From assembly GCA_021735165.1 (NCBI GenBank), contig JAIPHP010000014.1, forward strand, positions 1 through 35,373: a DNA stretch of 35,373 nucleotides. Reading direction: 5' to 3'. Shown piece by piece: positions 2,308 through 26,396 of this stretch. This stretch comes from Candidatus Woesearchaeota archaeon (GTDB taxonomy: Archaea > Nanobdellota > Nanobdellia > Woesearchaeales > 21-14-0-10-32-9). The position numbers were made by a program, and so were the translations under genes. Under the pieces are notes generated by a model that was given only the letters and a program-made list of their open reading frames with translations, had not been told where the DNA came from and ran no database searches. Each line of letters begins with the position of its first letter. Within the stretch, counting starts at the first letter, position 1.

Positions 2308-2438
2308 TTACTTTTTTCATAACTAATAAAAGAAAAACCATCTCTTCTATCAACATTTGAAACTTTCCAAAGCTCATTATTAAACTGAGGAAAATAAGCA
2401 TCTCCATCACATTCTTTATGAATTTGAGTTAATTCCAT
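2308..2438 (-). pseudogene. folA: Remnant of dihydrofolate reductase (C-terminal fragment)
   Basis: Read from 2438 downwards, the minus strand encodes MELTQIH, then GDAYFPQF, LWKV, RRDGFSFISYEK. This is the characteristic C-terminal block of DHFR (GDxxFP..., W..., F.YER). The N-terminal two thirds, with the NADPH and folate sites, are missing. The homology begins exactly where the dispersed repeat (2438-2563) ends. At the 3' end a run of six A (plus-strand T at 2312-2317) seems to have lost one base: one extra A would restore YEKK followed by TAA at 2308-2310, a normal DHFR terminus. The fragment lies downstream of thyA on the same strand, the usual thyA-folA order. A working DHFR elsewhere in the genome is not excluded. 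Confidence 0.7.
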
Positions 2439-2563
2439 TTTATTCGCATGCCAAAAATCAAAGATTTTTGTGCAGGTCAGGGTACGACAAAAACAAAGCT
2501 TTTGTGTACAATAAATGCAAAGCATTTATTTGTATTAAACTCCTTCCGCTAGCGCGCAATAAT
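2438..2563 (+). repeat. Dispersed multi-hairpin repeat, copy A
   Basis: It is about 90% identical over 122 bp to copy B at 16031-16152. It holds three hairpins: CAAAAATC/GATTTTTG with an AAA loop; ACAAAA/TTTTGT; and AATAAATGC (2510-2518) with GCATTTATT (2522-2530), a perfect 9-bp stem with loop AAA. Linkers TTCGCATGCC, CAGGTCAGGGTACGAC and TTTGTATTAAACTCC separate them, and it ends in CTAGCGCGCAATAA. It sits between thyA and the folA remnant and replaces the front of folA. Confidence 0.8.
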
Positions 2564-2578
2564 AACAGACATTCTAAA

Positions 2579-3691
2579 TCACCCTGTAGACATAGATCTT
2601 TCAATTTTGTCATAATGATTATCTTTGTAGCCTACAACTTCAAAATCGTAAAAGCTGACAGTATCCAATAACTCTTTTGCTGGTTTTCTGTTGTTAGAGT
2701 GTATTTTCAATTGAGCTTGAGGATATTTGTTTGTATCTCTTGCTAACTGCTCTAAAACTGCTGTTACATGATCAAAATCTTCTTTCCATTCTTCTTTAGG
2801 TTTTTTTGAATACCTATCAATCCAGTTCTTTATTTTCAAAAAATCCTCTGGTTTTTTCGCATCATGTAACCTGTCTTTAAGTTTTTCTAAATTATTTGAA
2901 TACCATTCTGCTTTTTCTTCTACACCGCAGTAAATATGCGCATCCACAATATCATGTGTGAATATCCCTGGTTTTAGACCTGCATATTCTGCTACAAAAA
3001 TACCTAGTAAGCCGTATTCCCCAATATTCATTGGAACACCTAAAAAAGAATCTGCACTTCTCTGGTTCATAACAATATCTAACCTATCATTCATAACAAC
3101 AAATTGATAACCTGTAGGACAAGGAGGAAGAGCCATATTATCTATTTCGTCAACTTTCCAAGATTCTACTTTTAGTCTTCTACTATCACTTCTATTTTTC
3201 GCAGCTTCAATAACATTAGCCAATTGATCTATATGCTCACCATTAGAACCGGTCCAATCTCTCCATTGAGCCCCGTAAGGTCTATCTAGTCCACCGACTT
3301 TTTTTCTGAATTCTTTGTCAGATTTAAGCTTATATTCAAACTCTTTGAACTCTTTTTCAAATTCATTAAAATTTAATTTTCTTCCTTCTTTTTTTAAATT
3401 ATGGTTGAAAAGATCTTTATTCCAGAAATTGCATTTGTTCTCAACCATATAATCAACATGTAATTGTCCATCATTCTCAGGACCCCTCATGAACCAGACC
3501 ATTTCATGAATTAACCCCCTATAAAATAATTTTTTAGTATTTATCAGAAGAACACCTTTTGAAAGATCAAATTTCATTGCTGCGCCAGTGTTTGCAATTG
3601 TTCCACCAGCTCGACTATCTTTAAATACAGAATTCTCATCAGAAAGAATCCAAAGTAAATAATCATGATATTCTTGATTCATATTATTCAT
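2579..3691 (-). CDS. thyA: Thymidylate synthase (ThyA type, with insertions)
   Basis: Makes dTMP from dUMP with methylene-tetrahydrofolate. The catalytic loop is LPPCPTGYQF, holding the nucleophile Cys (E. coli has PCH, so the neighbour differs), followed by NQRSADSFLGVPMNIGEY and a dUMP-binding THDIVDAHIY. The C-terminus DFEVVGY is typical. At about 370 residues it is some 100 longer than E. coli ThyA. The extra length is a charged insertion after the FWNKD region and a second between DAHIY and the QLKI strand. The ATG at 3691 is chosen because it is preceded by GGGGGTAA (Shine-Dalgarno) and a TATA box at 3731-3740; an upstream in-frame ATG at 3814 would place the TATA inside the gene. A folA remnant lies downstream. 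Confidence 0.92.
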   Translation of the reverse strand: MNNMNQEYHDYLLWILSDENSVFKDSRAGGTIANTGAAMKFDLSKGVLLINTKKLFYRGLIHEMVWFMRGPENDGQLHVDYMVENKCNFWNKDLFNHNLKKEGRKLNFNEFEKEFKEFEYKLKSDKEFRKKVGGLDRPYGAQWRDWTGSNGEHIDQLANVIEAAKNRSDSRRLKVESWKVDEIDNMALPPCPTGYQFVVMNDRLDIVMNQRSADSFLGVPMNIGEYGLLGIFVAEYAGLKPGIFTHDIVDAHIYCGVEEKAEWYSNNLEKLKDRLHDAKKPEDFLKIKNWIDRYSKKPKEEWKEDFDHVTAVLEQLARDTNKYPQAQLKIHSNNRKPAKELLDTVSFYDFEVVGYKDNHYDKIERSMSTG

Positions 3692-3730
3692 TAATTTACC
3701 CCCAATAATAAAACTGTTCAAGAACAACCA

Positions 3731-3740
3731 GTATTTAAAA
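3731..3740 (-). promoter_or_regulatory. TATA box of thyA
   Basis: The minus strand reads TTTTAAATAC, about 40 nt upstream of ATG 3691, leaving a short leader with the Shine-Dalgarno GGGGGT. It decides between the two possible thyA starts. Confidence 0.6.
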
Positions 3741-3841
3741 TTTTCTTTTGAAACAACTATAAAGTGATTACAAATCCGGAAAACATCCGGTTTTTTCGAA
3801 AAAATATAAATCATAATAAATGAATAAAAAAGATAAAAAAA

Positions 3842-4405
3842 TTAAATTTTCCCAACAAGATTCATGCCTGGCTTGAGTGTCTTTTCGCCTGGCTTCCAGT
3901 TAGCTGGGCAAACCTGTCCCGGATTTTCTCTTACGAACTTGCTCGCTTGTAATTTTCTAAGAATTTCATGAGCATTTCTTCCAACACTATTATCATGAAC
4001 ATCCATAGCGACAAGTTTTCTATCAGGATCAATTATGAAACTTCCTCTAAGACTTAGCCCTTCTTCTGGTAAATAAGTACCAAATTGTCTGCAAACTTTT
4101 CCTGTTGGATCAGCAAGCATCGGATACTTAATCTTTTTTATTGATTCAGAATGATCATGCCAAGCCTTGTGAACAAAAGCAGTATCTGTACTTACCGATA
4201 ATATTTCTGCACCTTCTTTTTTGAACTCATCATACAAATCAGCTGCATCACTAAGTTCTGTAGGACAAACAAATGTGAAATCTGCTGGGTAAAAAAGCAT
4301 TATAACCCATTTACCTTTATAATCACTTAACTTAACCTTTTTTGTTTCATCATTCTGAAAAGCTTCAACTTCAAAATCTTCAACTTTTTCTCCAATAAAA
4401 ACCAT
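3842..4405 (-). CDS. Typical 2-Cys peroxiredoxin (AhpC/Prx1 group)
   Basis: Reduces hydrogen peroxide and organic peroxides in the cytoplasm. The peroxidatic Cys is C47 in DFTFVCPTE, and the resolving Cys is C166 in GQVCPANW, near the end as in typical dimer/decamer 2-Cys enzymes. The active-site Arg is probably in SLRGSFIIDP. At 187 residues it has standard AhpC length, without a long thioredoxin extension. The start is supported by GGAGG seven bases upstream of ATG 4405 and A/T-rich TATA candidates near 4445-4470 (minus strand TTTTTAAAAGG and TATTTAATAAAA). It is transcribed away from ABCE1. No dedicated AhpF-like reductase is nearby, so its electron donor is unknown. Confidence 0.95.
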   Translation of the reverse strand: MVFIGEKVEDFEVEAFQNDETKKVKLSDYKGKWVIMLFYPADFTFVCPTELSDAADLYDEFKKEGAEILSVSTDTAFVHKAWHDHSESIKKIKYPMLADPTGKVCRQFGTYLPEEGLSLRGSFIIDPDRKLVAMDVHDNSVGRNAHEILRKLQASKFVRENPGQVCPANWKPGEKTLKPGMNLVGKI

Positions 4406-4506
4406 TTTATCCCTCCATCTTTCTTAGAAATCAGAACAAAAGGCCTTTTAAAAATTTTATTAAATACTTAAAAACAACAATCAAAAACAGCTAAACTGTT
4501 AAAAAA

Positions 4507-4517
4507 CCTTTATAAAC
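4507..4517 (+). promoter_or_regulatory. TATA box of the ABCE1 gene
   Basis: CCTTTATAAAC lies about 25 nt upstream of ATG 4539 with no Shine-Dalgarno between, pointing to a leaderless transcript. Confidence 0.6.
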
Positions 4518-4538
4518 ATTTGATGAATTCGTTATTCT

Positions 4539-6311
4539 ATGAAGAAAAGAATCATGATTGTAAAAAAAGAAAAATGCAACCCAGAAGGCTGCGGAGGATA
4601 CCTTTGCATGCGAGTAAGCCCTTCAAATAGAGCCGGCAAAGAAGCAATACTAAAAGATACTGATGGCAAAGTAAAAGTAAACGAAGAAGTAATAACTGAC
4701 GCAGACAGAATAGCAGCAAACAAATGCCCTTTTGGAGCACTAACCATGGTAAACCTTCCTGATGAACTAAACCAAGACCCAATACACAGATACCCTCCAA
4801 ACGGCTTTGCACTTTACAAATTACCAATACCAATATTTGGAAAAGTAGTTGGAATAATAGGAAGAAACGGAATAGGAAAATCCACCACATTAAATATACT
4901 AGCAGGCATTCTTAAACCTAATTTAGGAGAAGATGGAAAAAAAGCAACATACAAAGATCTAATTGAAAGATTCAAAGGAACAGAAGCACAAACATTCTTT
5001 GAAAAACTAGAAAAAAAAGAAATAAAAATAGCATACAAGCCACAAATGGTAGACCAAATACCAAAAGCATTCACTGGAACAGTAAATGAACTACTAAAAA
5101 AATCAGATGAAAAAAATGAATTAGATAAAATAATAGAAGAACTACAACTAAAAAACATACTAAATCATGACATAAAAGACATATCAGGAGGAGAACTACA
5201 AAGAGTAGCAATAGCAGCAACAGTACTAAAAAAGGCAAACCTATACATGTTTGATGAACCAACATCATATCTAGACATAAAACAAAGAATAAAAATAAGC
5301 AAATTCATAAAAAAACTAGCAAACGAAAACACAGCAGTACTAGTAATAGAACACGACCTAATAATCTTAGACTACATGACGGACCTAATACATCTAATGT
5401 ATGGACAAGAAGGAGCTTACGGAATATGCTCTTTAGCAAAAACAACAAAAGCAGGAATCAACACATACCTATCAGGATACATCACAGATGAAAACATGAG
5501 ATTTAGAGATCATGAAATAAAATTCGACAAACACGCCCAAGAAAAAGAACACAAATCAGAACAACTAACAAAATGGGAACAATTCAAATACAAAATAGGA
5601 CAATTCTCCCTAGACGTAGAACAAGGAAATATAGAAAGACACGACATAATAGGAATCCTGGGTGAAAACGGAATAGGAAAAACAACATTTGCAAAAATAA
5701 TCTCAGGACAAATAAAAGAAGAAGACCACATCACACAAAAAGAAACAAACCACGGAAAACTAAAAATCTCTTATAAACCTCAATACATAGAAAAAAACGA
5801 TGAACTAGTAATAATATATCTGAAAGAAGCAATGAAATACGACTTACAATTAATAAGACCACTACAAATAAAACAATTAATGAACAAAACATTAAATCAA
5901 TTATCAGGAGGAGAACTACAAAGAGTAGCAATCGCAAAATGTCTCTCAGAAGAAGCAGACATCTACCTAATGGACGAACCCTCCGCATACCTTGACGTAG
6001 AACAAAGACTAACAATAAGCAAAGCAATAAAAGAAATGATGATAGAAAAAGGAAAATCTGCAATAATAATAGACCACGACCTACTATTCATAGACTACCT
6101 ATCAAACAAAATACTAGTCTTCGAAGGAGAACCCGCAATCAAAGGAAAAACATCAGGACCACACCCAATGGAAAACGGAATGAATAGGTTCCTTAAAGAA
6201 CTCAACATAACATTCAGAAGAGACGAAGAATCACACCGTCCAAGAGTAAACAAAATAGGCAGCCAAAAAGATCAAGAACAAAAATCAAGTGGAAAACTAT
6301 ATTATTCCTAA
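4539..6311 (+). CDS. ABCE1/Rli1 ribosome-recycling ATPase with reduced Fe-S domain
   Basis: Splits ribosomes after termination together with aRF1/Pelota. Order: N-terminal ferredoxin-like domain (1-70), NBD1 with GIIGRNGIGKST and ISGGELQR...FDEPTSYLD, NBD2 with GILGENGIGKTT and LSGGELQR...MDEPSAYLDVEQR, then a C-terminal hinge with TFRRD and RPRVNK. Both ATP sites look intact, and 590 residues is normal. The odd part is the Fe-S domain. Canonical ABCE1 has eight Cys (CxPxxCxxxCxxxCP and CxxCxxCxxxCP). Here only C13, C18, C23 and C63 remain: the first CP is VSP (S27), and the second CxxCxxC is replaced by ITDADRIAAN. Those four are the ligand set of one cluster; the other set is gone. Own promoter, monocistronic, divergent from the peroxiredoxin. 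Confidence 0.96.
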   Translation: MKKRIMIVKKEKCNPEGCGGYLCMRVSPSNRAGKEAILKDTDGKVKVNEEVITDADRIAANKCPFGALTMVNLPDELNQDPIHRYPPNGFALYKLPIPIFGKVVGIIGRNGIGKSTTLNILAGILKPNLGEDGKKATYKDLIERFKGTEAQTFFEKLEKKEIKIAYKPQMVDQIPKAFTGTVNELLKKSDEKNELDKIIEELQLKNILNHDIKDISGGELQRVAIAATVLKKANLYMFDEPTSYLDIKQRIKISKFIKKLANENTAVLVIEHDLIILDYMTDLIHLMYGQEGAYGICSLAKTTKAGINTYLSGYITDENMRFRDHEIKFDKHAQEKEHKSEQLTKWEQFKYKIGQFSLDVEQGNIERHDIIGILGENGIGKTTFAKIISGQIKEEDHITQKETNHGKLKISYKPQYIEKNDELVIIYLKEAMKYDLQLIRPLQIKQLMNKTLNQLSGGELQRVAIAKCLSEEADIYLMDEPSAYLDVEQRLTISKAIKEMMIEKGKSAIIIDHDLLFIDYLSNKILVFEGEPAIKGKTSGPHPMENGMNRFLKELNITFRRDEESHRPRVNKIGSQKDQEQKSSGKLYYS

Positions 6312-6335
6312 AAATCGAACCAAACAACACAATTG

Positions 6336-6484
6336 ACAAAATAATGAAAATCGCTGCTCCGAGTCTGCTAAGAAACTAAAAGTTTCTTGCACACAGAAAT
6401 CAAAAATGATTTCTGAGCAGAACGAAGCATTACGACTCAGTCGCCAAGACAGGAGTTTCAGATTGTTCGCTAGCGCGCAATAAA
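6336..6484 (+). repeat. Dispersed multi-hairpin repeat, copy C
   Basis: It begins with AAAATAATGAAAATCGCTGC and TCCGAGTCT, shared with copy E (26334-26361). It carries AAGAAACT/AGTTTCTT with loop AAA (6370-6388), AGAAATCA/TGATTTCT with loop AAAA (6395-6414) and a small CGACT/AGTCG hairpin near 6433. It ends with TAGCGCGCAATAA at 6471-6483. It fills the gap between ABCE1 and the next gene. Confidence 0.75.
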
Positions 6485-6541
6485 AAGAAAATAACCAAGA
6501 ATTAGAAGAAATATTAAAGCCCTATAAAAAATAAAAACAAC

Positions 6542-7192
6542 ATGAAATCAAAAATCCTTCAAAACCTAATAAAAACAACACTTATAATAAGCTTAATCCT
6601 TATTATTCTATTAACCCCCTTTCTTTTCTTTTCATATAATGAACATCATTATGAATCTCAGGCAAAGCAAAACAACATTTACCAAAAACTTGGAGAACAA
6701 ACAGCAAGACAACAAAACAAAAACACAATAAACTTCCTCTTAGGAAAAGAAGAACTCAAAGGAAACTATACTCAAGCAGAAAAACAACACATGCAAGACG
6801 TAAAAAACATTTACACAACAATAAACGCAATAACAACAATATGCTTGCTCATAGCAATCTTAGGAATAATTTACTTCACAAAAAAAAGACAAGAAAAACA
6901 AATAATAAAATCACTAAAACAATCTTCAATAACAGTGCTTTTAATAGGAATACTAATTCTTATCTTAACACTGCTCAACTTTCAAAACACATTCACAGCA
7001 TTCCACAACATATTCTTCCCACAAGGAAACTGGCAATTCCCAATAAACAGCTTATTAATAACACTTTACCCAACCCAATTCTTCACAGACACAGCAACAT
7101 ACAGCTTTTTGACAAGCACAATAATATCCCTAATGACACTAACAATCACTTTTCTTCCCAAATACCAACCCCTATTTTCTTCAAAGAAATGA
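6542..7192 (+). CDS. DUF1461-family integral membrane protein
   Basis: A 216-residue protein with four predicted membrane helices: one near the N-terminus (about 10-32), one at 92-113, one at 128-147 and one near 185-205. Between helices 1 and 2 is a soluble loop with YNEHHYE and FLLGKEEL. After helix 3 comes AFHNIFFPQGNWQFP, SLLITLYPTQFF, matching the conserved tail of DUF1461 (TIGR01906) proteins, which have a fixed order of four helices and an HxxFFxxxxW motif. Function is unknown. TATA CCTATAAAAA at 6521-6530 lies about 20 nt upstream. Its last 47 bp overlap, tail to tail, the gene on the other strand. Confidence 0.7.
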   Translation: MKSKILQNLIKTTLIISLILIILLTPFLFFSYNEHHYESQAKQNNIYQKLGEQTARQQNKNTINFLLGKEELKGNYTQAEKQHMQDVKNIYTTINAITTICLLIAILGIIYFTKKRQEKQIIKSLKQSSITVLLIGILILILTLLNFQNTFTAFHNIFFPQGNWQFPINSLLITLYPTQFFTDTATYSFLTSTIISLMTLTITFLPKYQPLFSSKK

Positions 7193-8156
7193 TGGGTTCG
7201 TCAACACCATTAGAAAAAATATCCAAATTAACAGGAGAATAAACCACCTTCCCATTAAAAGTCATCTTTTTTTCATTCAAATAAGCATATTGATTAATAA
7301 TGTGACTACACATATTCAAATAATCAAATTCCCGCTCATTAAAAGTAAAAAATAAAGTATTAATCCCATAAGATTTCAAAAAATCATAAATCTTCATAGG
7401 TTCCTTCTTAATCTCATTACACTTAGAATTTTTCTTAAGTATAGCACGCTTATCTGCAAAAAGAAGAAAATAAAAAGACCTATCAGGAAACAACTCACTT
7501 AAAGGATCAAATAAATCATCAAATAACTTAAAATATTTAGACTTCGAATTTGACTTAAAATTCAAAGTTTGAAACTTACTCTCCATAACAATCAAAGACT
7601 TATCACTCTTATACCTATAATCAAACAACCCATCTAACTCCTTAATAGGAAAGTATCCAGATAAACCTTCACCACCCTCCTTAAGAATCACCATATTAGG
7701 ATATTTCTTTATTTTCAAAATAAAATTATCTGAATGTTCAACAATAAAATTATCTCTATTATCCTTATTAAACTTCTTATTAAACAACCCACCAGACCTT
7801 CCAAAATTCTTATCAAAATGCCTCAAGAAATATTTTGTAATTCTTCTAGAAATCCTCTCTCTTAGCTCCCCCATAATATTACCAGAATTACCCCAAGAAA
7901 TCTCATAAGGTAGCTCATTAAAATCATTAACAGAAAACAAAGTATATGACAAATCACCAATCAAATACTCAATCAAAGACCTATCGTTTAATTTACAATC
8001 CTCATTAAACTTATCTTCAATATTATGCAAAACATACTTAGACAAAACACCATGATTCTTTTTCAAACAAAAAACCTCAGACCCCCTCTTTTTAAAAAGA
8101 TAGGGCTTAAAATCCATAAAAAAATCATACCTAACATCAACCATACAAATTTTCAA
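7146..8156 (-). CDS. Orphan protein with a possible PD-(D/E)XK nuclease motif
   Basis: I do not recognise the family of this 336-residue soluble protein. Around residues 173-195 it reads ELDGLFDYR then LIVMESKF, i.e. a Glu/Asp followed by a beta-strand and E-x-K, the arrangement of PD-(D/E)XK nuclease-fold active sites (Glu173 or Asp175, Glu192, Lys194). A Tyr/Phe/Lys-rich N-terminus and a positively charged middle (RERISRRITKYFLRHF) would suit nucleic-acid binding. There is no signal peptide or membrane helix. TATA candidates upstream are TTTATAG and CTTTAAAATAG (minus strand, 8165-8190). It overlaps the DUF1461 gene by 47 bp at the 3' end. The nuclease suggestion is inference from one motif. 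Confidence 0.6.
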   Translation of the reverse strand: MKICMVDVRYDFFMDFKPYLFKKRGSEVFCLKKNHGVLSKYVLHNIEDKFNEDCKLNDRSLIEYLIGDLSYTLFSVNDFNELPYEISWGNSGNIMGELRERISRRITKYFLRHFDKNFGRSGGLFNKKFNKDNRDNFIVEHSDNFILKIKKYPNMVILKEGGEGLSGYFPIKELDGLFDYRYKSDKSLIVMESKFQTLNFKSNSKSKYFKLFDDLFDPLSELFPDRSFYFLLFADKRAILKKNSKCNEIKKEPMKIYDFLKSYGINTLFFTFNEREFDYLNMCSHIINQYAYLNEKKMTFNGKVVYSPVNLDIFSNGVDEPIISLKKIGVGIWEEK

Positions 8157-8198
8157 AGAAAGAAACTATAAAAAACTAACTATTTTAAAGTAAATACA

Positions 8199-8426
8199 CT
8201 ATTTAGCGACAATCAAAGTGCTAGTCAAACGAACATCATCATGACTCCTAATATTTTCCATAATAAAAGTAGCAATATCATCTGCATCACTGCCTTTAAG
8301 CTTCAAAATCAAATCCCACTCACCAAACAAAATATGACCCTCTACGACAGACTCAAAACCTAAAAAATCATCCAAAACCCCTCTTTCATGAGCTTCTCTT
8401 AAACTTACCAAAATATACGCAAACAT
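8199..8426 (-). CDS. Stand-alone Lrp/AsnC ligand-binding (RAM) domain protein
   Basis: About 75 residues beginning MFAYILVSL, ending LTSTLIVAK, with EGHILFGEWDLILKL in the middle. This is the beta-alpha-beta-beta-alpha-beta layout of the AsnC_trans_reg (RAM) domain (compare V...G..D....v), without the usual HTH. Stand-alone RAM proteins bind small ligands such as amino acids and can assemble with full-length Lrp proteins. The start at 8426 is preferred over the longer frame (8480), since GGTGGTG lies five bases upstream and the extra N-terminus would be hydrophobic and unlike the family. It is divergent from an ABC exporter, with a palindrome in the shared region. Confidence 0.8.
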   Translation of the reverse strand: MFAYILVSLREAHERGVLDDFLGFESVVEGHILFGEWDLILKLKGSDADDIATFIMENIRSHDDVRLTSTLIVAK

Positions 8427-8468
8427 AAAACACCACCTAAAAAACAAAATAAACACCCAACTATAAAA

Positions 8469-8488
8469 ACTTTGTTGCAAAACAAAGT
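8469..8488. promoter_or_regulatory. Palindrome between divergent genes, possible operator
   Basis: ACTTTGTT, loop GCAA, AACAAAGT: a perfect 8-bp inverted repeat between the RAM-domain gene (minus) and the ABC exporter (plus), about 25 bp upstream of the exporter TATA box. It could be an operator or part of a leader RNA hairpin. Confidence 0.4.
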
Positions 8489-8512
8489 AACCATTACAGA
8501 ATAATAACTAAA

Positions 8513-8522
8513 CTTTATATGC
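8513..8522 (+). promoter_or_regulatory. TATA box of the ABC exporter operon
   Basis: CTTTATATGC lies about 25 nt upstream of ATG 8544 with no Shine-Dalgarno, as expected for a leaderless message. Confidence 0.55.
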
Positions 8523-8543
8523 ATACAAGCAAAAAAACAAAAC

Positions 8544-11353: not shown

Positions 11354-11356
11354 AAA

Positions 11357-11367: not shown

Positions 11368-11387
11368 AAAAAAAGCATCCCCCAATC

Positions 11388-11699: not shown

Positions 11700-11703
11700 A
11701 AAA

Positions 11704-12474: not shown

Positions 12475-12494
12475 AACCCACAGAAAAGCAAGCC

Positions 12495-12637: not shown

Positions 12638-12760
12638 GGGCCCGTAGCCTAGCCTGGATAGGGCGACAGCCTTCTACGCGCTAGAATCTCTAGATTCGCT
12701 GGCTCTTAGCCAGAACGCAAAGAGAGCTGTAGATCGCGAGTTCGAATCTCGCCGGGCTCA
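12638..12760 (+). tRNA. tRNA-Arg(UCU) with intron
   Basis: Acceptor GGGCCCG/CGGGCTC, D-stem GCCT/GGGC, anticodon stem ACAGC/GCTGT, loop CT-TCT-A-A with anticodon UCU (12673-12675), variable AGATC, T-arm GCGAG-TTCGAAT-CTCGC, discriminator A; CCA is not encoded. A 48-nt intron lies at the usual archaeal site after base 37. The last 12 bases of the tRNA and two following bases are repeated 110 bp downstream. Confidence 0.93.
12677..12724 (+). other. Intron of tRNA-Arg(UCU)
   Basis: 48 nt between A37 and A38. It holds the hairpin CTGGCT/AGCCAG (loop CTT) and AGAATC/GATTC before it. Removal gives a standard seven-base anticodon loop, as expected for splicing endonuclease acting on a bulge-helix-bulge. 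Confidence 0.85.
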
Positions 12761-15954: not shown

Positions 15955-16153
15955 GTTTATGCATAGAAACAAAGTTTCTGGCACAACAAAAATGAACGAA
16001 CATTTTTGTGTGCAATAAAAACAAAGCTTTTATTCGCATGCCAAAAGTCAAAGATTTCTGAGTAGGACGGGGCACGACAAAAACAAAAATTTTGTGTACA
16101 ATAAATGCAAAGCATTTATTTGTATTAAACTCCCTTCACTAGCGCGCAATAAT
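15955..16153 (+). repeat. Dispersed multi-hairpin repeat, copy B (longest)
   Basis: It fills most of the 313-bp gap after the lipoprotein gene. Hairpins in order: AGAAAC/GTTTCT loop AAA (15965-15979); ACAAAAATG/CATTTTTGT loop AACGAA (15986-16009); AATAAAA/TTTTATT (16014-16034); a weakened CAAAAGTC/GATTTCTG loop AAA; ACAAAA/TTTTGT; and AATAAATGC/GCATTTATT loop AAA (16100-16120). It ends in CTAGCGCGCAATAA. The last 122 bp match copy A at about 90%. The rest of the gap (16154-16234) shows nothing. Confidence 0.8.
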
Positions 16154-16234
16154 ATTATTTCCAAGAACACTAAGATGTGTTTTGTTGATGCTTAAGCACA
16201 TAAATTTTTTATTTTACTTAAAAAAACCGACAAA

Positions 16235-19572: not shown

Positions 19573-19609
19573 AAAACATCACAACATTTGCAAATCACAA
19601 ACAATGTAA

Positions 19610-19640
19610 CCCGCATGCAGAAAAAAATAGCGCGCAATAA
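19610..19640 (+). repeat. Dispersed repeat, minimal copy F
   Basis: CCCGCATGCAG, an A run, then TAGCGCGCAATAA (19628-19640). Only the CGCATGC linker and the 3' end module of the family remain. Weak pairing ACATT/AATGT (around 19583-19607) precedes it. Confidence 0.5.
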
Positions 19641-19695
19641 ACAAGATCAAACAAATACACACATCATTAAACGAAAAGAATTTAAAGTGAACAAA

Positions 19696-19851: not shown

Positions 19852-19870
19852 TGTAAAAAAATTCATAAAT

Positions 19871-20010
19871 GCGGACGTAGCCAAGCGGTCTAAGGCGACC
19901 GCCTGCAGAACACAAGCAGAAACTGCTATGATGAGTTCACAACTAAAGTATGTGAACGATGATAAAAAGCTGATAGCGGTTATTCGGGGGTTCAAATCCC
20001 TCCGTCCGCT
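19871..20010 (+). tRNA. tRNA-Cys(GCA) with intron
   Basis: Acceptor GCGGACG/CGTCCGC, D-stem GCC/GGC, anticodon stem ACCGC/GCGGT, loop CT-GCA-G-A with anticodon GCA (19905-19907), variable TATTC, T-arm GGGGG-TTCAAAT-CCCTC, discriminator T73 as expected for Cys. CCA is not encoded. A 66-nt intron follows base 37. Confidence 0.93.
19909..19974 (+). other. Intron of tRNA-Cys(GCA)
   Basis: 66 nt with hairpins AGCAG/CTGCT (loop AAA) and GTTCAC/GTGAAC (11-nt loop). It contains ATGATGA at 19928-19934 (perfect box C) and CTGA at 19970-19973 (perfect box D), so a C/D guide-like RNA is possible. However, the GTTCAC hairpin occupies the expected guide segment. Confidence 0.75.
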
Positions 20011-20018
20011 TTTTTTTT
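20011..20018 (+). terminator. T-run terminator after tRNA-Cys
   Basis: Eight T directly after the discriminator base, the usual archaeal termination signal. Confidence 0.6.
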
Positions 20019-20124
20019 CTTTAAAAAAAATAAGAACAATAAAAATACAAGCAACCACCCATTTTTTCACACAACCAAACCCGATACAAAAAAAGTATTA
20101 ACTTCTAAGTGGTAAAGAATGAAA

Positions 20125-20169
20125 AGTATATAAGTCATCATTAATTACCTGTCTATGAAAACAAAGTGA
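20125..20169 (+). promoter_or_regulatory. TATA box and four-codon leader ORF before the 20166 gene
   Basis: TATA AGTATATAAG (20125-20134) predicts a start near 20152-20158. The first ATG (20155) reads ATG AAA ACA AAG TGA, a four-codon ORF. Its stop overlaps the GTG start of the main gene (GTGA at 20166-20169). AAAACAAA occurs twice around the junction. Confidence 0.5.
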
Positions 20170-20705
20170 AAACAAAATTTCAAGGAATAAAAGATTATGA
20201 TTCTCTTATCAAGTTACAACATTTAGAAGAAAAAAACGAGAGAAAAAGCAAAATATCAGCATATGGATTTGCAACTGCAGGAGCAGTTACTGCAGGAATC
20301 ACATTCTCGCTATCACCCCTACATAAAGATATAGCAGACTCATATGAAATGAAACTATACAAAGCTCACAAATCAAAACTTGAAGAAATTCAAGAAAAAA
20401 AATCTATAATAAACCAAGAAATAACCTCCCTGAAAATCCCAAATACAACAATAGACAAACTAATAGACGAAAAAATAAATTCTATCAAAAAAGAAATAAT
20501 CACAATACAAAAAACAGAACAATACAAAATGTTTGAACACACTCAAAACAAGATAAAAGATTTAAAATCGCCTGGTTTAATTCTAAGCGCTGCATTAATA
20601 ATAATAGGAACATACAAATTCATACAATCTAAAATGTACAAAAAGAGTGCGGAAAACTTAGCAAAAAGGACAAACCATGCCTATCGCACACAAAAATCTT
20701 CTTAG
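20166..20705 (+). CDS. Membrane protein with a coiled coil between two helices (orphan)
   Basis: 179 residues, unknown function. One membrane helix lies at about 30-50 (SAYGFATAGAVTAGITFSL) and a second near 137-155 (GLILSAALIIIGTYKFI). Between them a charged stretch of about 85 residues (KSKLEEIQEKKSIINQE, KLIDEKINSIKKEI) is predicted coiled coil. If both helices span the membrane, the coil lies outside or inside as a hairpin. The start is GTG 20166, the only start that keeps the whole frame; the ATG eleven bases upstream is out of frame and forms a tiny leader ORF. Confidence 0.55.
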   Translation: MKTKFQGIKDYDSLIKLQHLEEKNERKSKISAYGFATAGAVTAGITFSLSPLHKDIADSYEMKLYKAHKSKLEEIQEKKSIINQEITSLKIPNTTIDKLIDEKINSIKKEIITIQKTEQYKMFEHTQNKIKDLKSPGLILSAALIIIGTYKFIQSKMYKKSAENLAKRTNHAYRTQKSS

Positions 20706-20765
20706 AAAAAACACATTAACTTTCACCCAAAAATTTATTAAACGCAATTTAACACCACAATTCTT

Positions 20766-21275
20766 ATGAACTCCCTAAATTTAAAAAAAATTACAGAAAC
20801 TGAATACGAAATATTTCACAAAACCACAAAACTTGGCCATGGACAAGTAAGAGCAAACCTATTATTCTTAAGAATAGACACAATACAAGGCCTAGATTCA
20901 ACTCCAAAACCAAAAACAAGAATACAAGGATATAAAATATTCAACCAAATATATGAAAACTTAGAAAATAAAATAATAGGATATTATGCGGACATAAATT
21001 ATGGATATGACCTAAAAAAAATAAATGAAACCATAAAAAAAGAAAAAAGCACTCCTGAAGAAGCGATAAAAAAAACATGGAGTTACCACATGGCGCAAAT
21101 AAAAAATATGAATTCATTCATAATTCTAAACTCAACAAAACATAAAAAACAAAACATAAAAAACAAACACAACAATAACAACGAAAAATACAAATCAATA
21201 GACATAATATTTTATAACAAAAAAAACGAAGAACAAATACAACAAAAAATAAAAACCATGACTGAGTGGCTGTAA
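20766..21275 (+). CDS. Orphan soluble protein
   Basis: 169 residues, not recognised. It looks like a single alpha/beta domain: LKKITETEYEIFHKT, QVRANLLFLRIDTIQG, a helix GYKIFNQIYENLENK, the strand IIGYYADINYGYDL, then a Lys/Asn-rich low-complexity linker (about 125-145) and a last strand-helix unit (SIDIIFYNKK...). The linker's Lys/Asn content follows the local A-rich plus strand. TATA-like TTTATTAAAC about 25-35 nt upstream of ATG 20766 supports a leaderless start. It is followed at once by a zinc-finger gene, probably in one operon. Confidence 0.5.
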   Translation: MNSLNLKKITETEYEIFHKTTKLGHGQVRANLLFLRIDTIQGLDSTPKPKTRIQGYKIFNQIYENLENKIIGYYADINYGYDLKKINETIKKEKSTPEEAIKKTWSYHMAQIKNMNSFIILNSTKHKKQNIKNKHNNNNEKYKSIDIIFYNKKNEEQIQQKIKTMTEWL

Positions 21276-21277
21276 AA

Positions 21278-21550
21278 ATGTTCAGAAAAAAAATATATGG
21301 AGCATCAAAAATAGACGAATGTTTCATCTGCGGAGAACAATCAACAATAAAGAACAAGCAAGGACTAACAACCTGTCAAAAACACAAAGATGAAGAATTA
21401 TTAGATGTAAAATGTGCCTGCGGAGACTGGCTAGACATCAAACAAGGAAAATACGGAACCTTTTTTCTTTGCATGCAATGCGGACCAATAAACCTAAAAA
21501 AAGGCCTTGAAATAAATGGCTACCCCTTAAAAACAGCAGATCAACTATAA
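21278..21550 (+). CDS. Small zinc-binding protein (two metal-binding motifs)
   Basis: About 90 residues. A first motif reads CFICGEQ...TTCQKH (CxxC then CxxH, about 15 residues apart) and a second reads CACGDWLDI...FLCMQCG (CxC then CxxC), resembling treble-clef/topoisomerase-type zinc ribbons. It probably binds nucleic acid or protein, but no specific family is recognised. ATG 21278 is favoured; a GTG at 21266 would overlap the previous gene by ten bases. It lies two bases after the previous gene's stop and 57 bp before valS, which has its own TATA (CTATATAAATA, about 21563-21573). Confidence 0.6.
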   Translation: MFRKKIYGASKIDECFICGEQSTIKNKQGLTTCQKHKDEELLDVKCACGDWLDIKQGKYGTFFLCMQCGPINLKKGLEINGYPLKTADQL

Positions 21551-21607
21551 ACATCCAAAAAACTATATAAATAACATCTAAATCTAAACAATTAAGAGGG
21601 AACTTAA

Positions 21608-24034
21608 GTGGAATTACCAAAAAGATACGAACCAAAAGAATCAGAAGAAAAATGGATGAAATACTGGGCTGAAAAAAACATTTTTACATTCAAAGAACAA
21701 AGCCTGGATGAAACTAAAGAAATCTATTCAATAGATACGCCTCCGCCAACAGTTAGCGGAAAAATGCACATCGGACACGCATTCTCCTATGCACAAGGAG
21801 ACATGATAGTAAGATTCCACAGAATGAAAGGAAAAATAATATTCTACCCATTTGGAACAGATGACAATGGACTGCCAACTGAACGACTTATAGAAAAAAC
21901 AAAAAAAGTAAAATCCACAAAAATGGAAAGATCAGAATTCATAGAACTCTGTGAAAAAACAATAGAAGAAATAAAACCGGAATTCATAGCAGACTGGGAA
22001 AAACTCGGAATAAGCGCAGATTACAAAAAATCTTATTCAACAATAAGCAAACATTCAATAAAAACATCACAAAAAAGTTTCATAGAATTATACAAAAAAG
22101 GAAGAATCTACGAACAAGAAAGTCCGATGAGCTGGTGCCCAAAATGTCAAACAGCGATCGCTCAAGCAGAATTTGAAAATGTAGAAATGACATCACACTT
22201 CTCAGACATAATATTCAAACAAGGACAAAAAGACCTTATAATAGCAACAACAAGACCTGAGATGATACCTTCCTGTGTAGCACTATTCGCGCATCCAGAC
22301 GATGAGAGATATAAAGAATTAAAAGGAAAATTCGCGACAGTACCTCTATTTAATTATGAAGTACCAATAATGTTTGACGAATCAGTAACAATGGACAAAG
22401 GAACAGGACTCATGATGGTTTGCACCTTCGGAGACAAAGAAGACGTAGAAAAATGGCATAAATACAAACTCTCTTTAAAAACAGTATTTACAAAAGATGG
22501 AAGAATGAACAAAGAAGCAGGAAAATATGAAGGACTCGAAATAAAGGAAGCAAGAAAAGCAATCCTTGAAGACCTAAAAAAAGAAGGATTCCTATTAAAA
22601 CAAAAAGAAATAAAACACGCAGTCAACGTACACGACAAATGCGGAACAGAAATAGAAATACTAAAAACAAAACAATGGTTCATACGAGTGTTAGATAAAA
22701 AACAAGAACTAATAGAAGCAGCAGACAAAATAACTTGGCACCCTGAATTCATGAAAAAAAGATACATACACTGGGTAGAAAATCTTCAATGGGATTGGTG
22801 CATAAGCAGACAAAGACACTTTGGAGCGCCATTTCCTGTATGGAGAAATAAAGATACAGGAGAAATAATACTTGCAGAAGAACCACAACTACCAGTATAC
22901 CCTCTAAAAGATAAACCTAAAGGACATGAAACTGAAAATATCATTCCAGAAACAGACGTTATGGATACATGGGCAACATCCTCATTAACACCACAAATAG
23001 CATTAGACTGGACGAACAATTCTGAAAAGTTCAAAAAAATGTACCCTGAAACAATAAGATTACAATCCCACGACATAATAAGAACCTGGGCATTTTACAC
23101 AATAACAAAAGGCATATACCACCACAATCAAGTACCCTGGAAACAAATAATGATCTCAGGATTCGTCTTAGATCCAAAAGGAAACAAGATGAGCAAAAGC
23201 AAAGGGAATACAATAAGCCCGCAAGACATAACAGAAAAATACGGATCAGACAGCATAAGATACTGGGCAGCAGGATCAAGACTTGGAGAAGACACACCAT
23301 ACCAAGAAAAAGATGTGCAAACAGGAAAAAAAACAATCACAAAATTATTCAACGCTTCAAAATTCACCATGATGAACTTAGAAGGCTACAAACCAGACCA
23401 CGATTCAAATACCAACACTCTAAAAACAGATTCATTAGAAATCATGGATAAATGGCTCTTATCAAAACTCCAAAAAACAATAAAAAAATCCACGGAAGGA
23501 TTTGAAGAATACGAATACAGCAAATCAAAACACGAAACAGACAAATTTTTCTGGCAAAAATTCTGCGACAACTACTTAGAATTCGTAAAACACAGAACAT
23601 ACGGAGAAGAAACAAATATAAAATCAAAAACCGCGGCACAAACAACACTATACCATACATTACTCACACAAATAAAGTTATTTGCACCAATAATGCCCTT
23701 CATAACAGAAGAAATATACCACGCATACTTCAAAGATTTTGAAAAACAAAAAAGCATACATATAACAAAGTGGCCAGAATACAATCCAGAATTAGTTGAT
23801 GAAGAAGCAGAAAAAACAGGCGACTTAGCAGTAGAAATCATAGCAGAAATAAGAAAATATAAATCAGAAAACAAATTAAGCCTTAAAGAAGAACTTCAAG
23901 AAATAACAATACACTGTGCCGAAGAAAAACAAAAAAATATACAACTCATAGAAGAAGACATAAAAAAAGTCGGAATAATAAACATAATAAACTATAAAAA
24001 ATCAGAAGAACTAAAAATAGAAATACAAAAATGA
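21608..24034 (+). CDS. valS: Valyl-tRNA synthetase
   Basis: Charges tRNA-Val with valine. The class I signatures are both present: HIGH at residues 54-57 (GKMHIGHAFSY) and KMSKS at about 527-531 (GNKMSKSKGN). The editing (CP1) domain contains TTRPEMIPSCVALFAHPDD and the MDKGTGLMMVCTFGDKED block typical of archaeal ValRS. The anticodon-binding domain follows, with YAEF-like region NYLEFVKHRTYGEE. At 808 residues it lacks the C-terminal coiled-coil arm of bacterial enzymes, as usual for archaea. It starts with GTG 21608, preceded by GAGGG at a good distance. Monocistronic. Confidence 0.96.
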   Translation: MELPKRYEPKESEEKWMKYWAEKNIFTFKEQSLDETKEIYSIDTPPPTVSGKMHIGHAFSYAQGDMIVRFHRMKGKIIFYPFGTDDNGLPTERLIEKTKKVKSTKMERSEFIELCEKTIEEIKPEFIADWEKLGISADYKKSYSTISKHSIKTSQKSFIELYKKGRIYEQESPMSWCPKCQTAIAQAEFENVEMTSHFSDIIFKQGQKDLIIATTRPEMIPSCVALFAHPDDERYKELKGKFATVPLFNYEVPIMFDESVTMDKGTGLMMVCTFGDKEDVEKWHKYKLSLKTVFTKDGRMNKEAGKYEGLEIKEARKAILEDLKKEGFLLKQKEIKHAVNVHDKCGTEIEILKTKQWFIRVLDKKQELIEAADKITWHPEFMKKRYIHWVENLQWDWCISRQRHFGAPFPVWRNKDTGEIILAEEPQLPVYPLKDKPKGHETENIIPETDVMDTWATSSLTPQIALDWTNNSEKFKKMYPETIRLQSHDIIRTWAFYTITKGIYHHNQVPWKQIMISGFVLDPKGNKMSKSKGNTISPQDITEKYGSDSIRYWAAGSRLGEDTPYQEKDVQTGKKTITKLFNASKFTMMNLEGYKPDHDSNTNTLKTDSLEIMDKWLLSKLQKTIKKSTEGFEEYEYSKSKHETDKFFWQKFCDNYLEFVKHRTYGEETNIKSKTAAQTTLYHTLLTQIKLFAPIMPFITEEIYHAYFKDFEKQKSIHITKWPEYNPELVDEEAEKTGDLAVEIIAEIRKYKSENKLSLKEELQEITIHCAEEKQKNIQLIEEDIKKVGIINIINYKKSEELKIEIQK

Positions 24035-24620
24035 AACGAATTATAATAAGCAGAGACTTTAGTCCAAAATATAAATGACACGTAAAAAAAATTGCTGAAA
24101 CAATCCATCCCCGCCTTAAAAAGCCGAACTTTAACAATTGTTTCTTAATCACAAATTTTTGAACATACTAAGCAAAGTACCATTCATATCCATCTTAAAA
24201 GATATTACCTTTCTGGCGTTCATATGTAAAATTGATGAAAGAAACAAAGAAACCCAAAGATTTCTTAATAACGACAATAAACAACCATAATTAGCTAACA
24301 AAAAAATAAAATTACAAATTCATACAAGAACACAAATTATGAAAAGAACTAAAAATAGATATGAAATTCAACGTAGGCAGAGAAAAAATACAATCAAGCT
24401 CTAAATTAGTTAAAAAAAACGCAAGAAAAAATTCAAAAATCTAAGAAAAACTTAAATACTTCTAAATAAAAAGAACCACTCTTCATAAAAAAGAACAAGA
24501 AACATAGATATAAAAATGCAGAATTTTCACTCAACAGTAAATACAAAATGGAAATGTTTATAAATAACCTCAAACACACAAACCTAAAACCTAAAACGAA
24601 CACAACGGAGGAAACACACA
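24035..24620. other. 586-bp intergenic region, no convincing gene
   Basis: At its start an ATG overlapping the valS stop (ATGA at 24031-24034) opens MKRIIISRDF... but meets a stop after 15 codons; the same frame continues open for another 26 codons, so a decayed gene is possible. Two tiny overlapping ORFs (24339-24404 and 24361-24444) encode 21 and 27 basic residues, with no similarity I recognise. A TATA-like CTTAAATA near 24449 could start a small transcript. The final 65 bp hold the promoter of the next gene. Confidence 0.45.
24555..24611 (+). promoter_or_regulatory. TATA box, leader and Shine-Dalgarno of the 24621 gene
   Basis: TGTTTATAAATAA (about 24555-24567) and GGAGG (24607-24611) nine bases before ATG 24621. 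This is one of the few genes here with a clear leader of roughly 30 nt. Confidence 0.6.
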
Positions 24621-25412
24621 ATGATAATAAAACACTTTGTTCTTGATAACAATAAAATAATAACAACAAACAAAATAACACAAGAAGAAAAAGAATTCAC
24701 AGAAATGTTTCTAAAAGAAGCAAAAAAAAGTAACAAAAGAGGAGCACCATACATAAAAAACACAATTCCTTTTGAAAACAAAAATCTAACAAACTGGAAA
24801 GCAATAGAATTAACAAAAGAAGGAACAGAATTCATAAAAGACATTTATGAAACACCCGTATTCTACGATAAACAAACCAAGACAAAAATAACAAAAATAA
24901 AAGGAGATAACTTAGAACTAAAAATATTTCCCAAAGACATAGACTTCCTATACTTATTAAAAGCAGAATCAGACTACAAAAAAATAACTACAGGAATAGG
25001 ATTCATAAAAAACATAGGTTTCGGAGAAAAAACAAACGAATTAACATACATACTTGAAAAAGAAGGCATTGACTGGATTAAAAAAAATTACTTAGACGAC
25101 CCAAAAGAAGACATAGAAACTTACAACCACGAAGACATACTTAGAACAACAGCAATACAAGACATATTTGAGCTAGAACCAATAGAAGTTGATGAAGCTG
25201 GCAAACTAGTTTATGGAATAGAAACCGCGGAAGTTAAAATAAGCCACATAAACAACGACAAAAAATACCTACCAATACTAGCAAATAATATGTGGCCCTC
25301 TCTTGGAACCTATGATTCAAAAGACATAAGAGACATACATGAAAATTTTATATTTGGAACGGACGAAGTCACAGACATGGACAATATATACAATAAAGAA
25401 AACGTGAATTAA
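24621..25412 (+). CDS. Orphan soluble protein
   Basis: 263 residues with strong initiation signals (TATA plus GGAGG) but no family that I recognise. It is acidic-to-neutral and alpha/beta: helices in ITQEEKEFTEMFLKEAKK and NWKAIELTKEGTEFIKDIY, strands in NLELKIFPKDIDFLYLLK and KLVYGIETAEVKISHI, ending in an Asp/Glu-rich tail (TDEVTDMDN). No membrane helix, signal peptide or metal motif is visible. The strong Shine-Dalgarno suggests it is well translated. It is followed by a dispersed repeat. Confidence 0.55.
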   Translation: MIIKHFVLDNNKIITTNKITQEEKEFTEMFLKEAKKSNKRGAPYIKNTIPFENKNLTNWKAIELTKEGTEFIKDIYETPVFYDKQTKTKITKIKGDNLELKIFPKDIDFLYLLKAESDYKKITTGIGFIKNIGFGEKTNELTYILEKEGIDWIKKNYLDDPKEDIETYNHEDILRTTAIQDIFELEPIEVDEAGKLVYGIETAEVKISHINNDKKYLPILANNMWPSLGTYDSKDIRDIHENFIFGTDEVTDMDNIYNKENVN

Positions 25413-25435
25413 TCCCCAACCTAAATGCAAAAACA

Positions 25436-25545
25436 ACAAGAAATCTAAAAAGATTTTTGTACACTAAAAAGCAAGCTTTTTACGTGAAGCAAAGCTATCT
25501 GTATGTCAAAAATTCAAAGAATTTCTAAACAGGCCAGGGCATTAA
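25436..25545 (+). repeat. Dispersed multi-hairpin repeat, divergent copy D
   Basis: Hairpins: AAATCT/AGATTT loop AAAA (25441-25456); AAAAAGC/GCTTTTT loop AA (25466-25481); AAATTC/GAATTT loop AAA (25510-25524). The linker CAGGCCAGGGCA matches CAGGTCAGGGTA of copy A. It lacks the TAGCGCGCAATAA end, so it is a truncated or older member. The remaining gap to 25606 shows nothing clear. Confidence 0.6.
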
Positions 25546-25606
25546 ACCTTTTGTTGCTAAAATTCAATAAAAACGGAAAAAAGTGACTGCTAAAAAAAAT
25601 ATTTTT

Positions 25607-26281
25607 TTATAGTTTTATTTTATCAAAAGAATTCTTCCATAAATCAAATCTCAAAAGTTCTTTAGAATACTCTTTCCCAAGCAAAAATTTAACAGTTTCA
25701 GAAACCTGAATACTTGAAACCAAAGAACAAACAGGACTAAAAACGCCAACATCTGAACAACTATCAAAAGTCTCCCCCGTTCTAAAAAAAGAACTAAACT
25801 TCTCAGCATCATCAATAACAGCAACATTACCTCTCACAGAAGATGCAGCAGCATAAATCCAAGTTTTCCCAAAACGAAAACAAAAATCATTAATAACCTG
25901 CCGAGCTTTCATATTATCAGTACAATCCAAAATCAAATCAAACCCAAAAAGCAACACATCCACATTATCTTCATTTAAAAATTCATCAACAACATCAACT
26001 TTTACACTTGAATTCAGCCTACCTAATTTCTCCTTTGCAACCAAAACCTTCAACTTATCAACATCATCTTCACAAAACAAAACCTGCCTATGAAGATTGA
26101 CAAGAGAAACCCTATCCCCATCAACCAAACAAACCTTGCCAATACCCATCCTCACTAAAATTTCAGCAGACAAAGTTCCAAGCGCTCCTACACCAACAAC
26201 AACCACAGAACTATCTCTAAGTTTCCTTTGACCTTCTACTCCAATCTCCGAAAGTTTAATCTGACGAACATACCTATCCAT
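25607..26281 (-). CDS. E1-like adenylyltransferase (ThiF/MoeB/HesA family)
   Basis: Adenylates the C-terminal Gly of a ubiquitin-like or sulfur-carrier protein (ThiS/MoaD/SAMP type). 224 residues beginning MDRYVRQIKLSEIG, then the ATP site VVVGVGALGTLSAEIL, the acidic/Arg loop LVDGDRVSLVNLHRQ and the CTDNMKARQVIND motif, all standard. The tail has CSDVGVFSPVC but lacks both CxxC zinc pairs of MoeB/ThiF. No clear sulfur-accepting catalytic Cys in the crossover loop can be assigned. ATG 26281 is chosen over 26299, because a TATA (minus AATATAAATTAG, about 26303-26314) lies about 25 nt upstream. No carrier-protein gene is adjacent. Confidence 0.85.
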   Translation of the reverse strand: MDRYVRQIKLSEIGVEGQRKLRDSSVVVVGVGALGTLSAEILVRMGIGKVCLVDGDRVSLVNLHRQVLFCEDDVDKLKVLVAKEKLGRLNSSVKVDVVDEFLNEDNVDVLLFGFDLILDCTDNMKARQVINDFCFRFGKTWIYAAASSVRGNVAVIDDAEKFSSFFRTGETFDSCSDVGVFSPVCSLVSSIQVSETVKFLLGKEYSKELLRFDLWKNSFDKIKL

Positions 26282-26333
26282 GAAAAAACAGAACAACAAC
26301 TAATTTATATTAATTCTTATAAAATAACCACTA

Positions 26334-26396
26334 AAATAATGAAAATCGCTGCTCCAAGTCTCTTAGAAACGCAAAAGCGTATCTAGCGCGCAATAA
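26334..26396 (+). repeat. Dispersed repeat, single-hairpin copy E
   Basis: The shortest complete copy: AAAATAATGAAAATCGCTGC plus TCCAAGTCT (shared with copy C), one hairpin AGAAACGC/GCGTATCT (loop AAAA, one mismatch; 26365-26384), then TAGCGCGCAATAA (26384-26396). It defines the two ends of the element. Confidence 0.75.

Follow-up and report, generated by a model that had tools for sequence, protein, structure and literature searches.

Hairpin-rich repeats of a Woesearchaeota genome are very likely non-autonomous, PATE-like single-stranded DNA transposable elements with nested double-hairpin modules

What are the hairpin-bearing repeats dispersed along this archaeal contig, whose arms change in sequence from copy to copy while staying complementary? 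The window (the whole stretch of 35,373 nt that was analysed) is a contig from a Woesearchaeota genome of 1.1 Mb (G000), in which the repeat has about 47 copies. A first-pass annotation of the sequence had listed six loci (A–F) sharing an end module, and had offered a non-autonomous mobile element, an integron-like cassette site or a transcript-end structure as explanations. All six loci were confirmed at the positions given there, as were its statements that the repeats are neither CRISPR (the units are unequal) nor a protein-coding element (no conserved coding). Rfam families scored above their gathering thresholds only for rRNA and two tRNAs in the window, leaving the repeats unmatched. The end module TAGCGCGCAATAA has five exact occurrences in the window and six matches with up to two mismatches, against 0.33 expected. 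Genome-wide it occurs 24 times and the 5′ start TGAAAATCGCTGCTCCGAGTC 37 times (up to three mismatches); the reversed control gave 0 in both searches.

All window copies lie on the + strand. Two of them retain the 5′ end, and their starts had to be moved to the TG that follows the target ATAA: copy C (6345–6483, 139 nt), which lies directly 3′ of its target at 6341–6344 (TTAT on the tnpA strand), and copy E (26340–26396), whose ATAA is at 26336–26339. Copy C is internally deleted, with a double-hairpin module (M1) after GAGTC, a short remnant of the D1 domain described below and the 3′ end TAGCGCGCAATAA, while copy E is a 57-nt internal-deletion derivative consisting of the 5′ end, one hairpin and the 3′ end. 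The 5′ part is missing from copies A, B and D. What is left of copy A (2438–2562) is a hairpin running from CATGCC to AGCAGGTC, module M4 and the end module; it is 91% identical to positions 16028–16154 in the region of copy B (15955–16152), which carries modules M2, M5 and M4 and the end module. M4 is a double hairpin (2485–2534 in copy A, 16075–16124 in copy B) that in copy A separates GGGTA from TTAAACTCC of domain D2, the same insertion point as in other copies. Copy D (25422–25560) is a core remnant that has lost its 3′ end as well, with hairpins of the type found in a copy of the same-genus genome G001 (L125), and copy F (19628–19640) is a 3′-end remnant, TAGCGCGCAATAA.

Full copies measure 136–424 nt, start with TG right after ATAA and end in CAATAA. 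They are built on a core of 136 nt with two palindromic domains, D1 and D2; the intact core is absent from all window copies and is clearest on two other contigs of the genome (C25:15079–15214 and C27:4–139). Extra hairpins, mostly paired, sit at fixed points inside the D1 and D2 palindromes: they are nested in this two-domain core, not arranged in the simple string first described. Loops are predominantly AAA (66 cases) or AAAA (12), as had been noted, and the copies fold strongly (median folding z of −4.9). The compensatory change reported for the arms was borne out in the core, where 8 pairs are altered on both sides compared with 2.7 ± 1.2 in shuffles (0/500); these counts were made on the core, and indels in module M1 misalign arms in the RNAalifold alignment. 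The stems covary, as the proposed selection on structure would have it, and single-stranded hairpin ends of a transposable element would explain this.

The repeats are mobile, with exact ends and a defined target, because an exact empty site exists in a relative and because removal of a second copy restores a reading frame. The orthologous locus of G001 reads ATGGAAAATCAAAATAACGG, compared with joined flanks of ATGGTAAATAA and AAATAATGG in G000. The second copy splits a frame, and joining contigs C17 and C27 through it, with the copy removed, restores the open frame. Contigs of G000 break inside identical copies. Of the 29 copies whose flank is complete over 12 nt, the 5′ flank ends in ATAA in 26, and position −5 is A or T in all 29. 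The element's own end is also ATAA and is constant, while the flanking ATAA varies in a few copies; the empty site holds a single TTAT. Empty site, fixed target, multicopy spread and broken contigs all agree with the first of the three explanations offered, a non-autonomous mobile element.

The ATAA at both flanks could be read as the target-site duplication of a DDE-type MITE with terminal inverted repeats, moved by a cut-and-paste transposase, and an abundant G000 repeat found at many contig ends, its own ends conserved as TGTGTTATCC, is presumably a DDE insertion sequence. We consider this very improbable and rejected it, as the defining terminal inverted repeats are absent: the ends are two separate palindromes and not mutual inverted repeats (TGAAAATCGC vs. 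TTATTGCGCGC). Variation is seen in the left flank, at −5 (A or T) and elsewhere, whereas the right end is constantly CAATAA; D2 is homologous to the end of a Y1 insertion sequence (IS), and the resident repeat with TGTGTTATCC ends is unrelated. The integron-like (attC-like) site of a tyrosine recombinase shares with the repeats folded single-strand hairpins, structure conserved over sequence, intergenic position and uniform orientation, but is contradicted by the whole-unit empty site: the complete unit enters ATAA by itself and not between cassettes, a cassette array is absent and the ends are homologous to a Y1 IS. It was rejected as next to impossible.

In sequence, the end of the element is homologous to that of a Y1 IS of the same genome. 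D2 matches, at 29 of 31 nt, sequence lying upstream of the Y1 tnpA gene of genome G024 (E = 1e-8); contig ends C16 and C19 of G000 carry the left end of a Y1 IS homologous to D2, and on C31 lies the right end of this IS together with the final 33 residues of TnpA, 79% identical. The TnpA protein belongs to PF01797 (E = 3e-24). D1 resembles the Y1 IS right end solely in a hairpin with a TTTA loop. The first-pass annotation had held that a known IS terminal sequence accounting for the shared parts would refute its reading, and half of this is the case: the end domain is homologous to an IS200/IS605-type end, which names the kind of element without making the elaborated repeat trivial. The copies (57–424 nt) encode no transposase, and a Pfam HMM search of G000 found no tnpA; the gene is present there only as fragments at contig ends. 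We dropped this lack as evidence against an IS200 model and attribute it to assembly collapse, because tblastn located the C-terminal 33 TnpA residues at a G000 contig end and at about nine G001 contig ends. The sole resident Y1 IS seen with both ends has target TTAA and guide AATT, unlike the TTAT and AATA of the element, which counts against the link.

In the tnpA-strand orientation, TTAT precedes the copies, which contain AATA within a conserved GGGGTTTAATACCCC hairpin. In a sample that takes in copies related by descent, and whose clearest independent switch is a single case, TTAT precedes families with AATA in 64 of 71 pattern matches (five of the seven exceptions are internal arm matches by inspection) and TTAA precedes families with AATT in 12 of 13; related Y1 elements with AATT have TTAA as their target. 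The TnpA proteins of G156 (AATA/TTAT) and G024 (AATT/TTAA) are 91% identical, with differing guides and targets. For IS608, pairing between the target and a guide next to the hairpin, and the re-programming of that guide, have been described (PMC5934647). The agreement of guide and target in our families appears to be the same IS200/IS605 guide recognition, and would represent a natural example of the code engineered in IS608, with one guide base changed and the target changed accordingly.

We therefore regard the repeats, with high confidence, as non-autonomous single-stranded DNA transposable elements of the IS200/IS605 kind that very probably move as single strands, with an internal guide of four letters choosing where they land. 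What is transposed is most likely the strand complementary to the one read in the window. An early idea, backed by the A/T at −5, took the + strand as transposed and the target on the left flank; it was abandoned for the tnpA-strand reading because left ends of the resident IS were seen, and the A/T preference just outside D1 (29/29) is unaccounted for with a target 5′ of D2, which counts against this reading. On the tnpA strand the element would lie directly 3′ of its TTAT target, its left end being the palindromic D2 with GGGGTTTAATACCCC and GACCTTTAGGTC, and its right end the palindromic D1, with AATAC at the hairpin foot and the terminus TTTTCATTAT. The folded ends would be bound in trans by a Y1 (HUH) transposase, presumably that of a resident IS200-like element. 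With AATA pairing to TTAT in the target as well as at either end, the element would be cut out and inserted anew in the form of single-stranded DNA. Recombination between repeated modules may have produced the truncated and internally deleted copies.

The uniform orientation reported earlier holds within the window, and 40 of 42 copies lie on the majority strand of their contig (p about 2e-5), but both orientations occur genome-wide. Insertion following the replicating strand (PMC6006769) would give such a contig-wise orientation; examined with GC skew and third-codon-position skew, orientation showed no significant correlation with GC skew (26/41 copies, p = 0.12; 10/20 regions). Strong folding, covariation and mostly intergenic copies would also suit structures kept mainly as host RNA, as transcript-end or mRNA-stabilising hairpins with mobility secondary, and in 6 of 30 copies an upstream frame of 113–295 codons terminates at the TAA of the target. 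We judge this improbable. The stop-codon preference follows from the target being ATAA, recognition of single-stranded ends already accounts for the covarying folds, some copies interrupt coding frames (C27:10624, C17/C27) or occupy divergent regions (copy E), and orientation tracks the contig and not the nearest gene. A transcript-end structure is superfluous for explaining the spread, but may be a side effect where copies, as some do, stand directly behind stop codons.

Under the single-stranded transposition model, the core would have grown by gaining double-hairpin modules of about 50–57 nt with AAA loops, which would have entered preferentially at apical TAAA loops, at the foot beside the guide and at other junctions inside the palindromes. 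Plus and minus alleles of modules exist: in G139, two alleles differ by a double hairpin of 55 nt that immediately adjoins the guide and is flanked on either side by a TAC repeat, at the insertion point of M4 in G000. Modules of one format (hairpin-TTGTACA-hairpin) recur next to the AATAC guide in G000, G001, G032, G041 and G139, five genomes in all, and M2 and M3 are nearly identical 50-nt sequences in two different palindromes of one element. We tentatively suggest that mobile DNA exists here in a second, smaller class, the double-hairpin modules, which would move as folded single strands and might conceivably enter loops and feet of IS200/IS605-type terminal palindromes across Woesearchaeota. 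For the origin of the modules alone, another uncertain possibility is that single-stranded palindromes were miscopied locally, by template switching or snap-back synthesis, giving rise to the extra hairpins, consistent with their nature as inverted repeats with very short A-rich loops and with arms that differ between genomes at equal positions; the recurrence of M2/M3 in two palindromes and the shared format beside the guide argue against it. If the mobile-module reading is true, these elements are layered, self-elaborating single-stranded DNA structures.

Elements of the same architecture with unrelated arms are found in eleven other Woesearchaeota genomes, including other genera, and the guide hairpin in 16 of 193 genomes of the order (one match overall in the reversed control). 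The exact 22-nt pattern had no match in a genome contig collection; the 3′-end pattern was found in eight genome contigs from two Woesearchaeota genomes and in none of the viral contigs. The hosts are lake-dwelling Woesearchaeota, and these largely uncultivated archaea thereby gain a family of single-strand transposable elements that spans several genera and whose growth can be followed in steps, raising the question of how DNA that needs folds to move gains more folds yet keeps its function.

Several known systems invite comparison. BOX elements of Streptococcus pneumoniae are modular intergenic repeats with a variable number of hairpin modules between fixed ends; the likeness lies in the described layout, but their modules are arranged in tandem, whereas those of the present repeats are nested in two terminal palindromes. 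REP/REPIN sequences with TnpA-REP (RAYT) are likewise dispersed, palindromic, non-coding and tied to Y1 HUH enzymes, but REPs are 20–40 nt long with GTAG/GTGG at the foot (PMC3733652, PMC6006769), whereas the foot here is AATAC (D1 and D2, in the families examined) and the unit is at least 136 nt with defined target and ends. IS200/IS605 elements (IS608, ISDra2), of whose Y1 transposases relatives occur in G000, resemble the repeats in having subterminal palindromes, a fixed tetranucleotide 3′ of which they insert and a guide tetranucleotide by the hairpin (PMC5934647); unlike them, the element is non-coding, both end palindromes are elaborated and the left-end guide lies in a GGGG/CCCC hairpin loop at about +23 to +26, not +16. 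Closest are the PATEs of Haloquadratum walsbyi (PMC3119063): archaeal, too short for a transposase, with IS605-related near-terminal palindromes and neither terminal inverted repeats nor target duplication, and reduced by internal deletions to terminal-only copies of about 50 nt (copy E has 57 nt). The present repeats likewise lack terminal inverted repeats, have palindromes near both ends and insert 3′ of a fixed short target without duplicating it. They differ in phylum, in the TTAT target matched by an explicit AATA guide in each domain, and in palindromes that hold strings of double-hairpin modules, full copies reaching 136–424 nt. SMR-A, a short mobile repeat whose insertion sites are palindromes near the ends of PATEs and IS605 elements (PMC3119063), parallels our modules in being a short mobile sequence within such palindromes; it is about 110 bp long with prominent terminal inverted repeats, compared with double hairpins of about 50–57 nt here, which unlike SMR-A leave the host palindrome paired and recur at fixed internal positions. 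The repeats are best filed as PATE-like non-autonomous IS200/IS605 elements, and what is new in them is the nested double-hairpin modules.

The six intergenic loci described in the window by the first-pass annotation, A (2438-2563), B (15955-16153), C (6336-6484), D (25436-25545), E (26334-26396) and F (19610-19640), are all present as reported there. Truncation at the 5' end affects copies A, B and D, and D has lost its 3' end as well; C and E carry internal deletions and F is a remnant. The window is contig C14 of an archaeal genome of 1.1 Mb and holds an archaeal 23S rRNA (34980-35373). The end module occurs well above chance expectation in the window and 24 times in the source genome (0 for the reversed pattern), where the 5' start is found 37 times (0 in the control). 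A 295-nt composite query returned 77 pieces, and the genome total is about 47, copies and remnants together.

The smallest complete copies, at C25:15079-15214 and C27:4-139 on two other contigs of this genome, are 136 nt long and consist of two palindromic domains. D1 is TGAAAATCGC...GCGATTTTCA, with GAGTC/GACTC and CTCCGCCC-TAAA-GGACGGAG inside, and is followed 3' by D2, GATTGCGTGCTA...TAGCGCGCAAT, which encloses GACC-TAAA-GGTC and GGGG-TATTA-AACCCC; AA then closes the element. The two ends of the element have no inverted-repeat relation; AATA lies in D2, AATAC at the foot of the D1 hairpin and TTAT at both element boundaries. The structure is under constraint: for eight core copies drawn from two species, 95% of cells are paired and two-sided changes fall at 8 pairs. 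Shuffled controls give 2.7 such pairs (0 of 500), and sliding the partners gives 0-3. Folding of the copies is more stable than that of dinucleotide-shuffled sequence (median z -4.9), and across genera the two-domain plan is kept while the arms are unrelated.

Larger copies, up to 424 nt with eleven hairpins, contain hairpin modules inserted at fixed positions: M1 between GAGTC and TATCTCC, M2 and M3 (nearly identical, 50 nt) in the two TAAA loops, M4 in GGGGTA^TTAAACCCC, M5 within M2, and M6 in the 3' arm of D1. Most inserts are two adjacent hairpins with AAA loops. Alleles with and without a module were found in the source genome (TAAA loop with or without M2) and in two other Woesearchaeota, G139 (a double hairpin of 55 nt separating AATAC from CCCC, flanked on both sides by TAC) and G188 (four hairpins at GTA). 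A hairpin-TTGTACA-hairpin format adjoins the guide, the tetranucleotide near the end hairpin, in G000 (the source genome), G001 (a relative of the same genus), G032, G041 and G139, with differing arms. The modules may be mobile units, or they may have arisen through copying errors. Outside the element, CCAAAAATCAAAGATTTTTGAGCA-type modules or comparable double hairpins are present in numerous further genomes of the order (stretches L091, L092, L097, L098, L100, L101, L119 and L141), some within larger palindromic elements such as AAAACCACCAATC... in G040.

The element moves. One copy of 240 nt (C27:10624-10863) sits in the opening part of a DUF4190 gene whose G001 ortholog has no element, aligns base for base over the junction and carries one AATAA-like site. 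The frame stays open through this copy (L025:1495-2100, G000 C27:10613-) as an 80-codon insertion with no stop, which may give a fusion protein. Contigs C17 and C27 both start with a 136-nt copy, and joining its flanks with one AATAA restores ...ECEEITNEEFPVDKYAFE.... The 5' flank is ATAA (TTAT on the tnpA strand) in 26 of the 29 copies having a full 12-nt flank, position -5 is A or T in all 29, and the opposite flank is free. Two copies (C20:21200-21333 and C3:131-262) are broken at contig ends by other repeats, one with a Y1-type end, TTCATTACATTGTTTGATTACGG..., the other GAGCACCCACCTCTGAAGAAGTGGG..., so that repeats are nested in repeats. Immediately upstream of the copy at C5:7755 (L008) lies a second, more diverged hairpin string, TGCAAAGAAAAATCTTATTTTTCTTGCA...GAGCATAATGGGCC, which is likely to be an older element from a different family.

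In IS608, a tetranucleotide beside each end hairpin pairs with the target and both cleavage sites, and altering it redirects insertion (PMC5934647). Of the 193 genomes in this order, 16 contain the motif GGGGTTTAATWCCCC (one hit in total for the reversed control), and left flanks were read for copies carrying motifs of this type. TTAT precedes 64 of 71 matches in families with the guide AATA, and TTAA 12 of 13 in AATT families, counts that include copies related by descent and correspond to few independent switches. Five of the seven AATA exceptions are internal arm matches; the others have TTTT and TTGT, once each. The TnpA proteins of G156 (AATA, TTAT) and G024 (AATT, TTAA) share 91% identity across 135 residues; within one transposase lineage, guide and target have therefore changed jointly.

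PF01797 has no match in the source genome, yet tblastn with the G024 TnpA placed the protein's final 33 residues at one end of contig C31. In G001, about nine contig ends hold fragments like it, the mark of a multicopy IS collapsed in assembly. The resident IS left end read from contig ends of the source genome, TTAA|TGCGAACGTAGTGAGTTCTGGGGTTTAATTCCCCGACCTTTAGGTCG, aligns with D2 taken as its reverse complement, TTAT|TGCGCGCTAGCGAAGGGGGTTTAATACCCCGACCTTTAGGTCG. In G024 an intact Y1 tnpA is preceded by the same left end, identical to D2 at 29 of 31 nt. By inspection, contig ends also hold at least two other Y1-type end sequences. Separately, the first 137 nt of the window (1-137, minus strand) fall in the end of a repeat, TGTGTTATCCTGTAAG..., which about ten other contig ends also carry, with 99-100% identity over about 136 nt. 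Another end type, TGTGTTATCCCAAAAC..., occurs at eight contig ends, and the repeat is probably a highly multicopy, assembly-collapsed IS.

Elements of the same plan occur in G000, G001, G010, G014, G024, G032, G041, G049, G062, G139, G151 and G188, and in several of these contigs break inside elements, as expected for recent multicopy elements. The nearest named genomes that share the element end are Candidatus Woesearchaeota MAGs, one labelled sediment. Strand is constant per contig in 40 of 42 copies (p about 2e-5). IS608 and ISDra2 are known to target a single template strand at the replication fork (PMC6006769), and this orientation fits such a behavior; its association with GC skew was not significant. 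The window as a whole is strongly strand-asymmetric, with a GC skew of about -0.26 and, in genes on both strands, a third-codon-position skew of about -0.54, which points to replication rather than transcription. It also has two Rfam tRNA matches (12638-12760, 123 nt; 19871-20010, 140 nt), neither called by ARAGORN, which are probably archaeal tRNAs with introns.

The family is PATE-like and IS200/IS605-derived, with the computationally checkable features of membership found; the one IS200/IS605 feature missing is an encoded transposase, which makes the element non-autonomous by definition. No published description was found in the open-licence papers searched. Three things are new here: double-hairpin modules in a nested arrangement, an order-wide distribution in Woesearchaeota and a guide/target switch that occurred naturally. 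The element within the DUF4190 gene is similar in kind to the in-frame insertions of REP, and the modules have a possible parallel in Haloquadratum, where the palindromes of PATEs (palindrome-associated transposable elements) receive insertions of SMR-A repeats (PMC3119063).
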